Under the pieces are notes generated by a model. It was not told where the DNA came from and ran no database searches. It worked only from the letters and a program-made list of their open reading frames with translations. From Candidatus Nitrosopelagicus brevis (GTDB lineage Archaea > Thermoproteota > Nitrososphaeria > Nitrososphaerales > Nitrosopumilaceae): a stretch of 64,000 bases of DNA. Every line of letters starts with the position of its first letter. Within the stretch, counting starts at the first letter, position 1. Positions 32,201-37,803 of the stretch are shown one piece after another. The translations under genes were made by a program, and so were the position numbers. Where the stretch lies: the NCBI RefSeq assembly GCF_000812185.1, contig NZ_CP007026.1, positions 873,107 to 937,106 on the forward strand. The letters run 5' to 3'.

Positions 32201-33166
32201 CTAGACTTTGTATGAATCAAGTATATGATTAATTTTGGTTATAGGAGCATTATTTTTTGAAATATTTTGTAACGCCGAAGGATTTTCTATATAATTCGGA
32301 ATTTTATCAATTAATCTTCTAGTATATGGAGTGATTAGTTCATTTTTATAAAATATTCCAGTTGGTATTTTTGTATCCCATTCAAGTGATTTTACAATTG
32401 CCTGTGTTTTTTTCTGATTTAATTCAGTTTCATCACTATAATGTACAACAGGATCATAATCGGTATCTTCTAATTTGTAAATACGTGGCATTGGCTTGTT
32501 GGTAGTTTCATCAACTCTATCTGCACCATTAAACCAATCTCTTGTATTGATGTCATTATATGTTGGACAAGGTTGTAAAACATCTACAAATGCTAAACCT
32601 TTGTGATTAATTGCGGCAATGATTATATCTTTTAGATGACGTATATCATAAGAGTAGGCTCTTGCTGTAAAAGTAAAACCACTAGCAATTGCAAGTCCAA
32701 TTGGATTAACATTATAATTTGTATTCGGAGTAGGTAAGGACTTGGTTTTTTCACCTAATTTTAGAGTAGGTGATGCTTGCCCCTTAGTCAATCCATATAC
32801 AGCATTATCAAATATGATGTATGTCATGTCCACGTTACGTCTACCAGCTGCAACAAAATGACCTGCACCGATTCCAAGCCCATCTCCATCACCACCAACG
32901 GCTATGATTTTCAAATTTGGGTTTGATATTTTTGCGCCTTGTGCAAAAGGTAAAACACGTCCATGCAAAGTATGAACACCAAATACATTGATGAAATGAG
33001 ATGTTTTTCCAGAACACCCAATACCAGAAAATATTGCAGTTTCATGACGAGGAATTTCCATTTCTGCCAGTGCCATTTGAATGGAATTTACAATTCCAAA
33101 ATCACCACATCCAGGACACCAGTCATTATGTACATCTGTTTTGTAATCTCCTACCTTAAGCGCCAT
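32201..33166 (-). CDS. korB: 2-oxoacid:ferredoxin oxidoreductase beta subunit
   Basis: A 321-residue thiamine-diphosphate subunit. It has W-C-P-G-C-G-D near residue 17, a third Cys in G-I-G-C-S-G, the TPP motif G-G-D-G-D-G-L-G-I-G-A-G-H and a fourth Cys in L-Q-P-C-P-T-Y, the four-Cys [4Fe-4S] set of two-subunit archaeal enzymes. It forms a complex with the gamma-alpha fused subunit to carboxylate or decarboxylate 2-oxoacids (2-oxoglutarate or pyruvate; substrate not resolved). Overlaps korA by 11 bases. Confidence 0.9.
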   Translation of the reverse strand: MALKVGDYKTDVHNDWCPGCGDFGIVNSIQMALAEMEIPRHETAIFSGIGCSGKTSHFINVFGVHTLHGRVLPFAQGAKISNPNLKIIAVGGDGDGLGIGAGHFVAAGRRNVDMTYIIFDNAVYGLTKGQASPTLKLGEKTKSLPTPNTNYNVNPIGLAIASGFTFTARAYSYDIRHLKDIIIAAINHKGLAFVDVLQPCPTYNDINTRDWFNGADRVDETTNKPMPRIYKLEDTDYDPVVHYSDETELNQKKTQAIVKSLEWDTKIPTGIFYKNELITPYTRRLIDKIPNYIENPSALQNISKNNAPITKINHILDSYKV

Positions 33167-35066
33167 ATGTTAAAACCTCTCTTTTTTCAGCATTATTATT
33201 TACAATTTTCTTTAATGTATCGTATAATTCAGTACATGTCATTGGTCTTCCTGTGTATTTTAGAATATAATAATCAGGATCTTTTTCTAAATTTTGTTTA
33301 ATTATTGACCCAAGCTGACCAGTGTAATTGGCCTCAACATCAATAATTGTTTTAGAATTAGAGAATGATTTTTTCAAAAGTTCTTTTGGGAATGGATGTA
33401 AAAGTTTTATTTCAACAAATCCAATGTTAATTCCTTCATTTTTCAACATATCAATTGCATCAAGAATTGGACCTTGAGTTGAACCCCAAGAAACAACACA
33501 AAATTCACCATCAGAATGTTTGACAATTTGTTCAGACTCAGGAATTTTTTCAAGAATGTAATCAAGACGAGACTGTCTTTTATCCATCATTTCTACACGA
33601 TTAACTGGATCCTCAGAAATATGACCTTCAACATCACTTTCATCTCCAGTATTCCAAAATATTCCATTTTCTAAACCTATTTTTGATCTTGGTGATAATC
33701 CATCGGCGGTATGGTCAAATCTTTTGTAAGCATTTGAAGGAGGTTCATCTAGTAGTTTTCCTCTATCAATATTGACTTTAGTTTCATCAAATCGTTGACA
33801 GGTAGTGACAGAACTAGCAATGAATTTATCCATCATATGTATAATAGGAACTTGAAAAACATCAGCGTAGTTAAACACATTAGCTGTATCATAAAAGCTA
33901 TCTGATACATTACCAGATGCATAAACAATTCTAGGAAATTCACCTACACCTGAATTAATGGCACATAGTAAATCATCTTGGCCATGACGGGTAGGTAAAC
34001 CAGTAGAAGGTCCACTTCTTTGATAAAATGTAATCACAACAGGAACTTCATTAATGCCTGCCCAACTCAAACATTCTATCATTAGTACAAAACCAGGTCC
34101 AGATGTACATGTTGCAGAACGTACGCCTGTTAATGATGAACCTATTGCCATACCTATTGCAGAGATTTCATCTTCAGTTTGAATAACAAGTGTTGAACCA
34201 GGACGATCTTCATTAATCTCAAGTATTTCGTTGGTTTCAAGAAAATTGCTTTCATCTGTTGCAGGCGTAATTGGATAATATGATTGAAATCTACATCCTG
34301 CAATTATTTTCCCAATGGATGTACCATAGTACCCTTGAACTAGAAGTGTATTTTCTTTAATCTCATTAATATTGAATTTTAAATCTGTACTTCCAAACTT
34401 TGCTGCAGCATAATTGTAAGCAAAATTTGCAGCAGATACATTCATGTCAGCGATTGCTTTTTTCTTTGAAAAAATTGAGTTTATAGATTCTGTTAATTTT
34501 TCTGTAGGAATCATTAACAATCCTAATGAAAGAGAGACTCCCAAAACATTGAACATACGAATCATAGTTTTAATTCGAGGATTTTCTATTTTTTCAGAAA
34601 GTTCAAACAAAAGACTACGGAAAGAAACAGAATGTATTGATGCACCTCTTTCAGATGCCAATTCCAAGATTCCTTTAATAGTATTCTCTTTGTTGTTAGA
34701 TTTTAAGAAACCTTCCATTCGTTCTTTAAAATCATTATCAAATGTAATAACATCTGAGACTTTGATATTTTCTAAAGTTGAATCGTAGATTATGATTCCA
34801 TTTTCTAGAACATCATTAGCATGACGAAATATAGTTTCAGCATCAAATGCAATTAACATGTTTGTACCTTTGATACTAGAACGAATTTGTTTGTCAGAAA
34901 CTCTAACTGCAAAATAACTATGTTCACCTTTTATGTTAGAATAGTACTCACGTTTTCCAAATATTTGATATCCCATTTTTGAGAAAACTTGAGAGAAAAT
35001 ATTAGCGGCAGTCTCAACACCACTACCTTGTGGTCCACCAATCATCCATGTAAAATCAGATACCAA
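33156..35066 (-). CDS. korA: 2-oxoacid:ferredoxin oxidoreductase gamma-alpha fused subunit
   Basis: A 636-residue protein. The gamma domain opens with D-F-T-W-M-I-G-G-P-Q-G-S-G-V; the alpha domain starts near residue 215 and carries the Y-P-I-T-P-A-T motif that binds the 2-oxoacid/CoA-side partner. Candidate starts: TTG at 35066, one base after the stop of the small Cys-rich gene, which I prefer as it leaves a typical N-terminus, or an in-frame ATG at 35087. It precedes korB in the operon. Confidence 0.85.
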   Translation of the reverse strand: MVSDFTWMIGGPQGSGVETAANIFSQVFSKMGYQIFGKREYYSNIKGEHSYFAVRVSDKQIRSSIKGTNMLIAFDAETIFRHANDVLENGIIIYDSTLENIKVSDVITFDNDFKERMEGFLKSNNKENTIKGILELASERGASIHSVSFRSLLFELSEKIENPRIKTMIRMFNVLGVSLSLGLLMIPTEKLTESINSIFSKKKAIADMNVSAANFAYNYAAAKFGSTDLKFNINEIKENTLLVQGYYGTSIGKIIAGCRFQSYYPITPATDESNFLETNEILEINEDRPGSTLVIQTEDEISAIGMAIGSSLTGVRSATCTSGPGFVLMIECLSWAGINEVPVVITFYQRSGPSTGLPTRHGQDDLLCAINSGVGEFPRIVYASGNVSDSFYDTANVFNYADVFQVPIIHMMDKFIASSVTTCQRFDETKVNIDRGKLLDEPPSNAYKRFDHTADGLSPRSKIGLENGIFWNTGDESDVEGHISEDPVNRVEMMDKRQSRLDYILEKIPESEQIVKHSDGEFCVVSWGSTQGPILDAIDMLKNEGINIGFVEIKLLHPFPKELLKKSFSNSKTIIDVEANYTGQLGSIIKQNLEKDPDYYILKYTGRPMTCTELYDTLKKIVNNNAEKREVLTYGA

Positions 35067-35067
35067 T

Positions 35068-35202
35068 TCATGCCCCCGTCGCTGCATCAAATAATGCACA
35101 TTCACATTTATCACGTTCACCACAATAAGGGCAAACACAGATACATTGTTCTATTGTTTTTGTACATTCAGAACAATTTAGAAAATCATCAGAAGAAGAC
35201 AA
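35068..35202 (-). CDS. 44-residue eight-cysteine small protein
   Basis: A TTG-started gene of 44 codons. Its eight cysteines are arranged C-x2-C, then C-x-C-x-C-x2-C, then C-x-C, at residues 10, 13, 20, 22, 24, 27, 33 and 35. It ends with A-L-F-D-A-A-T-G-A, and its TGA stop lies one base before the korA TTG, so it is the first gene of the kor operon. A small iron-sulphur or zinc protein that matures or feeds electrons to the oxidoreductase is an inference. An ATG just upstream (35209) opens only a six-codon peptide. Confidence 0.55.
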   Translation of the reverse strand: MSSSDDFLNCSECTKTIEQCICVCPYCGERDKCECALFDAATGA

Positions 35203-35221
35203 TAATCATAGTATGATTAAA

Positions 35222-35231
35222 TATTATAAAT
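35222..35231 (+). promoter_or_regulatory. TATA-like promoter of the 2-hydroxyacid dehydrogenase
   Basis: TATTATAAAT is centred about 23-25 bases before the ATG at 35249 and supports that start over the ATG at 35213 (leaderless transcript). Confidence 0.45.
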
Positions 35232-35248
35232 GGTTTGACCATACATTA

Positions 35249-36217
35249 ATGAAAAAACGTTTCAATGTGTTAGTTACAAGACGCCTACACACATCTGCAC
35301 TAGACGAATTAAAAAGAAAATGTAATGTGTCGCTGCATATAGGTAAAATTCCAATTCCAAAAAAAAATCTAATTGATAAAATCAAGAATATGGATGGCTT
35401 GGTTTGTCATCCATATGACACAATAGACAAAGAAGTCATTAAAAATTCAAAAAATCTCAAAGTAATCAGTACATTTAGCGTAGGTTTTGATCATATTGAT
35501 GTTAATTTTGCAAAATCACAAGGAATCAAAATTGGCTATACGCCTGAGGTTTTAACTAATGCCACAGCCGAGTTAACAATTGGATTAATTCTAGACGTGC
35601 TGAGAAGGATTTCTGAAGGAGATAGAATTATTCGAAATAAAAAATGGAATCAGATCTTCGGTGCATATGATTATACAGGTACGGAAGTATCAGGCAAGAC
35701 TATCGGAATTATAGGAATGGGAAGAATTGGAAGAGAAGTTGCAAGAAAGGCAAATGGTTTAGGTATGAATATAATTTATCATAATAGAAAACCGATATCA
35801 AAGAGAATTGAAAATATGTTAAAAGCAAAATATGTTTCAGAGAATATGCTCTACAAAAATAGTGATATAATTTCACTGCATGTTCCATACAATAACGATA
35901 CACACCATTTAATGAATTCAAAAATTTTTAAAAAAATGAAAAAAACTTCTTTTTTGATAAATACATCTAGAGGTAAAATTGTTAATGAAAAACAATTAGT
36001 TAATGCATTGATGAAAAAAGAAATTCAGGGTGCAGGAATGGATGTTTATGAATCAGAACCTGTTAAAAGAAACAGTCCATTATTAAAATTAGAAAATGTT
36101 GTTTTGGCACCACATGTTGGAAGCTCAACTAATGAAACAAGACAAAAAATGTCAGATATTACTGCAAGAAATTTGATTTTAGCACTAGAAGGAAAAAAAT
36201 TACTTTATTCAGTTTAG
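35249..36217 (+). CDS. D-isomer-specific 2-hydroxyacid dehydrogenase
   Basis: A 322-residue NAD(P) oxidoreductase, resembling glyoxylate/hydroxypyruvate reductases. Cofactor motif G-I-I-G-M-G-R-I-G-R-E; catalytic Arg in N-T-S-R-G-K-I-V, Glu in Y-E-S-E-P, and His in A-P-H-V-G-S-S. It reduces a 2-oxoacid to D-2-hydroxyacid; the substrate is not set by eye (glyoxylate, hydroxypyruvate or phosphoglycerate are possible). Start chosen by promoter spacing. Divergent from the kor operon; its stop overlaps the end of the next gene. Confidence 0.85.
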   Translation: MKKRFNVLVTRRLHTSALDELKRKCNVSLHIGKIPIPKKNLIDKIKNMDGLVCHPYDTIDKEVIKNSKNLKVISTFSVGFDHIDVNFAKSQGIKIGYTPEVLTNATAELTIGLILDVLRRISEGDRIIRNKKWNQIFGAYDYTGTEVSGKTIGIIGMGRIGREVARKANGLGMNIIYHNRKPISKRIENMLKAKYVSENMLYKNSDIISLHVPYNNDTHHLMNSKIFKKMKKTSFLINTSRGKIVNEKQLVNALMKKEIQGAGMDVYESEPVKRNSPLLKLENVVLAPHVGSSTNETRQKMSDITARNLILALEGKKLLYSV

Positions 36218-36480
36218 TCTAATTGAATTAAAACATCATCAGGATTGCCTTTAACACAATCAGTTCCAACAGCTTTTAGTTTTTGAAATTCAAGTGTACC
36301 TTCAGGGATTTTCCCTATTTTTTGTAATTCACCAATTTTTACAGTTACAACATCTTTGTGTTTTTCACATGTAATTCCAACCATGTAAGAATCATCATTA
36401 TGTACAATTTCCACTACATATTCTGGTGGATTAACACAATCACGTCCATTCTGTTTAACAGAACATCTATCTGGGAACAT
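36214..36480 (-). CDS. Small Cys/His protein, unknown
   Basis: An 88-residue protein. Cys 6 and Cys 15, then C-E-K-H near residue 38, could bind one zinc ion; the rest is a compact mixed alpha/beta fold. A fourth Cys lies near residue 74. Function unknown. It sits 24 bases after the FAD oxidoreductase ORF end on the same strand (minus) and may be read from its transcript. Confidence 0.55.
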   Translation of the reverse strand: MFPDRCSVKQNGRDCVNPPEYVVEIVHNDDSYMVGITCEKHKDVVTVKIGELQKIGKIPEGTLEFQKLKAVGTDCVKGNPDDVLIQLD

Positions 36481-36504: not shown

Positions 36505-37803
36505 TTAAATCTGTTCTATTATAGAATCAAAATTCCATAGCGTGTTTTTTTGAGAATTTGGTTTTTTTAAGATTCCTTTGTCCTGTAATTTTTTAATAAT
36601 TAAAGCAGAATAAGCAGGCGCACCAGTTGCACCAGGAGAATTGTAATTAACAATATGAAATGAATTATGACCTTCACGTTCCATTACATCAGAAATAAAA
36701 TTTCCATCTGGGGAAATAACGGGAGTACGTATTCCTGCAGTACCTTTTTTTGTAAAATAATCAGGTTTTAAGGATGGAATAAAATTCATGACACGTTGAA
36801 CCATTGCATCTTTTGAAATGGAACTTCTAAATTCATGACTGATTAACGATATGAAATCAGGATTAAGAAATAGTTTTTTTGCGCCACCAGTGAGAATTTC
36901 TCCTAGTTTTGATATAGTAGAGGGAATATCAGTTACAAAACCATCATATGTTTCAGGTGTTGGTACAGGCACAGCATTTGGACCAATTTCAGTAGTCCCA
37001 TTAGCACGTTTTATCCAATGAGGATCAAGGAATGGAAATTCAGGATGTCTAGCAACTGAATAGATGTTTGTTTTTACAATATCAGCATAACTGTTATGAG
37101 CTATCCAGTATTCTCCTCTAAAATGAAGATCAGAATATGATTCAAACAAGTCAAATTGTTTTGCAATATCTAACGAGTTTCCACCAGAGCAATTAATTAG
37201 ATAACTACATTCAATTGAAGAATTATCTGTAAAATTTACTTGAATTGCGTCATCATTTTTGATAAATGATTTTACACTTTTCTGAAAAAGGAATTCAGTT
37301 GAATTTTGTACAGATATTTTCTTTATTTCCTGTGTAAGTTTAGAATAATCAGTAGATACATCACTTTTGCAAAGTAACCCAGAAAAACATTCAACATTTT
37401 TTTCTTTTTGTTTTATTTCATTTGAGTCAAGTAATACAAGATTTTCTTCTAAAACACCATTTTCAATTCCCCATTTTTGGTATTTTTCTAATGTTTTATG
37501 CTGTGTTTCATTTAAAGCAACCTCAATTGTTCCTATTTCATTCCAAGGCGACATTGTATTTTCAGCAAGCGTTTTCCATAATTCATGTGAGCTTTGCGCA
37601 GATTTTGCAAAAATTTTTTTCTTTTCAGGGTTTAGATAAAACGGAGTATGAACAACGCCTGTATTTCTTCCACTAGTATGTTGAGCAACATTAGATTCTT
37701 TTTCAATAACACATACACTAGAGTCATAAAGATTTGAGATCCAATACGAAATTGTCGTACCTAAAATTCCTCCACCTAAAATTGCAATATCAAATTTTTT
37801 CAA
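36505..37803 (-). CDS. FAD-dependent oxidoreductase, L-2-hydroxyglutarate oxidase-like
   Basis: A 432-residue flavoprotein. The N-terminal FAD motif G-G-G-I-L-G-T-T-I is followed by E-K-E-S and then A-Q-H-T-S-G-R-N-T-G-V-V-H, the loop of LhgO/glycine-oxidase-like enzymes. It probably oxidises an alpha-hydroxy acid or amino acid and donates electrons to quinone or O2. The assignment to L-2-hydroxyglutarate is family inference. Adjacent to a 2-hydroxyacid dehydrogenase and 2-oxoacid oxidoreductase, which fits 2-oxoglutarate repair. Confidence 0.8.
   Translation of the reverse strand: MKKFDIAILGGGILGTTISYWISNLYDSSVCVIEKESNVAQHTSGRNTGVVHTPFYLNPEKKKIFAKSAQSSHELWKTLAENTMSPWNEIGTIEVALNETQHKTLEKYQKWGIENGVLEENLVLLDSNEIKQKEKNVECFSGLLCKSDVSTDYSKLTQEIKKISVQNSTEFLFQKSVKSFIKNDDAIQVNFTDNSSIECSYLINCSGGNSLDIAKQFDLFESYSDLHFRGEYWIAHNSYADIVKTNIYSVARHPEFPFLDPHWIKRANGTTEIGPNAVPVPTPETYDGFVTDIPSTISKLGEILTGGAKKLFLNPDFISLISHEFRSSISKDAMVQRVMNFIPSLKPDYFTKKGTAGIRTPVISPDGNFISDVMEREGHNSFHIVNYNSPGATGAPAYSALIIKKLQDKGILKKPNSQKNTLWNFDSIIEQI

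Follow-up and report, generated by a model that had tools for sequence, protein, structure and literature searches.

An eight-cysteine microprotein gene ahead of korA is inherited together with one clade of archaeal 2-oxoacid:ferredoxin oxidoreductases

Introduction

Some multisubunit oxoacid oxidoreductases have a ferredoxin-like delta subunit (PorD/KorD). With low-potential electrons, the KorAB enzyme either feeds 2-oxoglutarate and related acids or drains them, and ammonia-oxidising archaea are aerobic, yet retain this commonly oxygen-sensitive enzyme type. Short genes ahead of enzyme operons can escape annotation.

Small cysteine-rich proteins are known from Haloferax, where nine of 14 assayed CPxCG proteins bound zinc and five did not, so that zinc, another metal or no metal at all is possible for a given member (PMC11241148). 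One of them, HVO_2753, binds one zinc instead of the expected two, with one of its two predicted sites occupied (PMC10716476). The protein described here shares the size range of this class (44 aa, limit <70 aa) and contains a CPYCG pair, while its first pair reads CxxCG in 68% of the homologues and CSECT in the window protein. A search of the available literature found no description of a small kor-linked protein of such kind, and no match for presumed Nitrosopumilus maritimus locus tags.

Results

The window, i.e., the whole 64,000-nucleotide stretch of DNA analysed, originates from an ammonia-oxidising archaeon resembling Nitrosopelagicus, whose complete genome comprises 1.23 Mb. The following features are relevant to the locus:

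35068..35202, (-) strand: gene of the 44-aa eight-cysteine protein, read from a TTG start to a TGA stop (35068-35070); based on codon-level selection, a 62-sequence alignment and homologues
35217..35230, (-) strand: TATA-like box TTTATAATATTTAA, 14 to about 24 nt ahead of the TTG
33156..35066, (-) strand: korA, 2-oxoacid:ferredoxin oxidoreductase alpha subunit, 636 aa; NF041170 with 849 bits (cut-off 800); conserved start junction
32201..33166, (-) strand: korB, beta subunit; NF041171 with 434 bits (cut-off 423); four cluster-ligand cysteines C17, C20, C51 and C200
35213..36217, (+) strand: D-2-hydroxyacid dehydrogenase-like gene (PF02826/PF00389), divergent neighbour outside the unit

The small protein, MSSSDDFLNCSECTKTIEQCICVCPYCGERDKCECALFDAATGA, carries its eight cysteines in the pattern C-x2-C, C-x-C-x-C-x2-C, C-x-C, and the 44-codon frame with TTG start proposed by an earlier sequence-only reading was confirmed. 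As at least eight cysteines within 44 codons are also seen in eight other short frames of the window, cysteine richness alone is non-significant. Conservation of the frame is more informative. Among thirteen same-genus sequences, pN/pS amounts to 0.118 in the small frame, whereas the two alternative frames give 1.79 and 0.98, and pairwise differences are distributed as 213/142/858 over the three codon positions, position 3 thus accounting for 858 of 1213. Within 62 divergent aligned sequences all eight cysteines, whose conservation the sequence-only reading had named as support, are invariant together with G28 and G43, and P25, T42 and G44 are conserved to at least 90%. The resulting consensus is C-x2-C-(G)-(N)-x-I-(E/D)-x-C-x-C-x-C-P-Y-C-G-E-x3-C-x-C-(C/A)-...-A-T-G-G. 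The occurrence of further Cys-rich chance frames in the window could speak for a non-gene, either a chance ORF or a leader whose translation merely couples korA. We give this next to no credence, considering the phylum-wide amino acid conservation, the pN/pS of 0.12, and the orphan and NifU-fused copies that sit outside any leader role (see below). It is near certain that 35068-35202(-) is a genuine gene under purifying selection and linked to korAB.

In terms of architecture, the protein consists of two CxxC-x5/6-CxC units followed by a C-terminal DAATG(A/G) tail. A weak similarity of the two units outside the cysteines (p 0.016 with the more favourable of two gap placements) is suggestive of an internal duplication. 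The window protein is acidic (pI 4.1, net charge -5) and a basic patch is absent.

Both the TTG start and the near-identical TATA-like box are retained in 16 of 16 Nitrosopelagicus members examined, which fits a leaderless mRNA; archaeal promoter spacing suggests a transcript beginning at or near the TTG. A scan for bacterial-type promoters did not rise above shuffle level, and no Rfam match to an RNA element was found at the leader of the small gene.

korA and korB exceed the curated cut-offs of the archaeal two-subunit enzyme (NF041170/NF041171, Sulfolobus type), and they contain the TPP domains and the four KorB cluster cysteines. The TTG start of korA (35064-35066) lies one base past the TGA of the small gene, as had been noticed before. 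Of 15 further Nitrosopelagicus sequences, 13 share the one-base gap, there to a korA ATG, and two have a gap of two bases. Based on this conserved stop-N-ATG/TTG junction, and on the stops that interrupt the upstream-extended korA frame in many relatives, korA was assigned as 636 aa and not as the 660-aa frame. Initiation of korA upstream through the small frame, an alternative raised in the sequence-only reading, is thereby excluded as a general rule. The arrangement is best explained by a three-gene operon of small gene, korA and korB, with the small gene being the first.

The kor operon is flanked by a DAO-family gene, possibly a 2-hydroxyglutarate oxidase (36505-37803, (-) strand). Together with the D-2-hydroxyacid dehydrogenase-like gene, this neighbour hints at 2-oxoglutarate chemistry. 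Beside the DAO-family gene there is an 88-aa frame with several cysteines (36214-36480, (-) strand) that has no Pfam or NCBIfam match.

Of 400 genomes of the order searched in the proposed tBLASTn comparison of relatives, 301 gave a match to the small protein. A profile search extended this distribution by full-length copies in further families of the phylum (f25, f27, f47, f79 and f81), and the gene is present in one member of another order within the class. In most loci examined it is found directly 5' of korA on the same strand with korB next, and this same-strand placement recurs across many families of the phylum. The spacing to korA amounts to 1-2 nt in the genus of the window and mostly to 14-114 nt elsewhere. 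Two matches considered for viral carriage were both unrelated, one being a contig end among apparent phage genes and the other a stretch inside a long frame.

Phylogenetic analysis of 88 KorA proteins placed the carriers within one clade of 67 rows (SH-aLRT 94), leaving 21 rows outside. The small gene is found in 62 of the 67 rows and in none of the 21, and its presence and absence on the korA tree require four changes versus 22.6 in shuffles. The small gene is thus inherited together with one korA clade. This also holds within single genomes and families. Of the two korA copies in genome G414, only the in-clade copy carries the small gene. In family f10 it accompanies the korA of G072, which groups with f9/f79, and is missing in G010 and G044, whose korA forms a separate branch; in f13 it accompanies the korA of G067, which groups with f25, and is missing in G013 and G037, where the best match to korA is a distant one. 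Four incomplete genomes without korA are without the small gene as well. Within the clade, an adjacent small gene is missing in G010, G044 and the g15 genomes, which are reduced to 0.8 Mb; it is also missing next to korA in G246, which has it at a distance of 6 kb. The g15 members are Nitrosopumilaceae (L311, L312 and L313) that kept korA and lost the small gene; in them, korA is now preceded by a DAO-type gene similar to the one at 36505-37803 of the window. The korA genes of f42 (probably Sulfolobaceae) have no small gene upstream.

Copies apart from korA were observed as well. Clade-type korA is absent from f47, which gave a partial match of 445 bits; there, the small gene occurs as an orphan beside PTH2 and TruD, and Cys13 is lost in one of three genomes. 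Nitrosopumilaceae possess orphan paralogues of two types away from korA (L253-L255, L257-L259, L264 and L265; L256, L260-L263 and L266). One type combines a PHCHC-like motif with an FDAATGG-like tail, the other is tail-less, and in L257 and L264 both are found within 1.5 kb of each other. Considering these paralogues and the tail of the one type, the fold or tail of the small protein may have other partners.

In the two f12 genomes G012 and G026, the small protein forms the C-terminal half of a single frame with a NifU domain at its N-terminus (PF01106, E 6.4e-7 and 2.7e-8; CxxC intact):

L268, 3844-4200: NifU-small protein fusion frame, overlapping or abutting korA
L301, 1240-1617: NifU-small protein fusion frame, overlapping or abutting korA

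The fused NifU is the sole NifU domain in each of the two genomes, and the fusion was seen in one genus only. NifU is otherwise absent from 18 of 21 genomes tested, including that of the window. As a consequence of the fusion, the small protein and NifU probably act in the same process.

Across the compared groups, every row retains the KorB ligands C17, C20 and C200, and C51 is retained except in one f25 group. In this f25 sub-clade (L231, L232, L234, L235, L236, L243 and L245) the third [4Fe-4S] ligand is changed from Cys to Asn (GIGC to GIGN/GVGN); in these enzymes, the cluster must either have a different ligation or be altered. The sub-clade still carries the small eight-cysteine gene.

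The small protein is unannotated in that it is without a match in Pfam, NCBIfam and PDB: no Pfam or NCBIfam family was retrieved at E<=1, and the best PDB sequence hit, RNA polymerase subunit P at E 1.1, represents a chance-level knuckle similarity. AlphaFold models of the window protein and an f25 homologue (62- and 48-sequence alignments) reached a pLDDT of 63 and 65 with no usable fold, and Foldseek with the window-protein model gave nothing below E 6. Examination of clade-specific KorA/KorB residues as a contact surface yielded scattered positions only, which are mostly kept where the small gene is lost. Several known identities were rejected. The Fer4-type CxxCxxCxxxCP motifs of a PorD- or ferredoxin-like protein are absent, with no Pfam family at E<=1; two CxxCG knuckles with a rubredoxin profile were not found, there being no rubredoxin match in Pfam, NCBIfam or PDB. 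A ubiquitin-like or ThiS/MoaD-type protein is discounted since the window protein ends in GA instead of the C-terminal GG; TGA or TGE forms the C-terminus of the window protein and of several relatives, and 44 aa are too short for a beta-grasp.

Discussion

One possible function is electron transfer, with a rubredoxin-like mononuclear iron or Fe-S protein receiving the electrons of KorB and replacing the ferredoxin-like delta subunit. A ferredoxin-like acidity (pI about 4), the invariance of every cysteine, the operon place adjoining a redox enzyme and a ferredoxin gene alongside in some lineages agree with this. However, the CxxC-x6-CxC-x-CxxC-x5-CxC arrangement, which includes CPYCG, resembles a zinc knuckle and is matched by none of the ferredoxin or rubredoxin models, many archaea keep KorAB without the small protein, and lineages with an adjacent ferredoxin gene (a two-cluster ferredoxin encoded immediately ahead of it in members of f9, f10 and f20) retain the small gene too. 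We therefore regard electron transfer as unlikely.

A somewhat better, though still improbable, candidate is a purely structural zinc microprotein subunit, which would stabilise KorAB or shield it from oxygen and take no part in cluster assembly. The CxxCG/CPYCG motifs are those of zinc knuckles, the 1-2 nt coupling to korA in the genus of the window suggests matched production, and the gene is present in most genomes of an order holding aerobic ammonia oxidisers. The NifU fusion, in contrast, points toward Fe-S handling, and the f42 enzymes exist without the small gene.

The sequence-only reading had also considered a regulator of the divergent promoter. More generally, a zinc-ribbon regulator of transcription or translation, acting on the kor operon or the divergent gene, would be compatible with the leader position and with the regulatory deletion phenotypes of small zinc-finger-type proteins in Haloferax (PMC10716476). 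With 44 aa, its strong acidity and the missing basic patch, a DNA-binding regulator is unlikely, and the gene stays with korAB despite differing upstream genes and tracks korA across lineages; altogether, a regulatory role appears highly improbable.

In our view the chances are about even that the protein is an acidic CPxCG-type two-site metal microprotein working with KorAB, either in cluster assembly and protection or as an accessory subunit. In this cytosolic microprotein the eight invariant cysteines would be grouped into two Cys4 metal sites, the probable ligand sets being C10/C13/C20/C22 and C24/C27/C33/C35, and the conserved ATGG tail or the acidic face may dock on KorAB. Most likely, it would help to insert, keep or protect the [4Fe-4S] cluster of KorB; alternatively, it could serve as a small accessory metallosubunit of the enzyme. 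This explanation is based on the in-frame purifying selection, the invariant residues, the linkage to and co-inheritance with korA, the NifU fusion and the ferredoxin neighbour in some lineages, as well as the loss of Cys13 in the orphan f47 copy, where clade-type korA is absent. Against a partnership stands that KorAB dispenses with the small gene in f42, in G010 and G044, and in the 0.8-Mb g15 genomes.

Overall, the sequence-only reading was partly supported. Of the metal/Fe-S partner or maturation factor which it proposed, the association with the enzyme is borne out by operon position, co-inheritance and the NifU fusion, while metal and role are deduced; the breadth of the distribution and the conserved C-terminal ATGG tail had escaped it. 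Because the small gene sits just before korA and is co-inherited with the enzyme, a third component that has escaped recognition probably assists the “two-subunit” 2-oxoacid:ferredoxin oxidoreductase in ammonia-oxidising archaea and related organisms. The further-reaching proposal, that this one archaeal KorAB clade is a three-component system in which a dedicated eight-cysteine metallo-microprotein builds or maintains the Fe-S centre in organisms that lack NifU, is tentative and falls slightly short of an even chance. A dedicated and deeply conserved partner would change the purification and assay of KorAB, as the recombinant enzyme alone may be incomplete, and would provide a testable function for an otherwise unassigned protein family.

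Compared with known systems, the PorD/KorD delta subunit is likewise small, Cys-rich and encoded alongside oxidoreductase genes; the small protein differs by having neither a ferredoxin motif nor a Pfam match, and by a cysteine spacing that deviates from 2x[4Fe-4S] ferredoxins. The small protein is fused to the NifU/Nfu C-terminal Fe-S scaffold domain (PF01106) in G012 and G026 but is not a NifU domain in its own right, and most checked carriers are without a NifU match. The f42 versions of the two-subunit enzyme lack the upstream gene, unlike the window. The Haloferax volcanii C(P)XCG microproteins HVO_2753 and HVO_0758 (PMC10716476, PMC11241148) are alike in being stand-alone proteins of <70 aa with CPxCG-type cysteine pairs, and two sites are predicted for HVO_2753 as for the small protein. 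A PDB search with the profile of the small protein missed the structure of HVO_2753 at E<=10. In contrast to the haloarchaeal proteins, the second half of each unit is CxC and not CxxCG, and the gene is tied to korAB and encodes an ATGG tail. Among the systems compared, these haloarchaeal CPxCG microproteins are the closest in kind.
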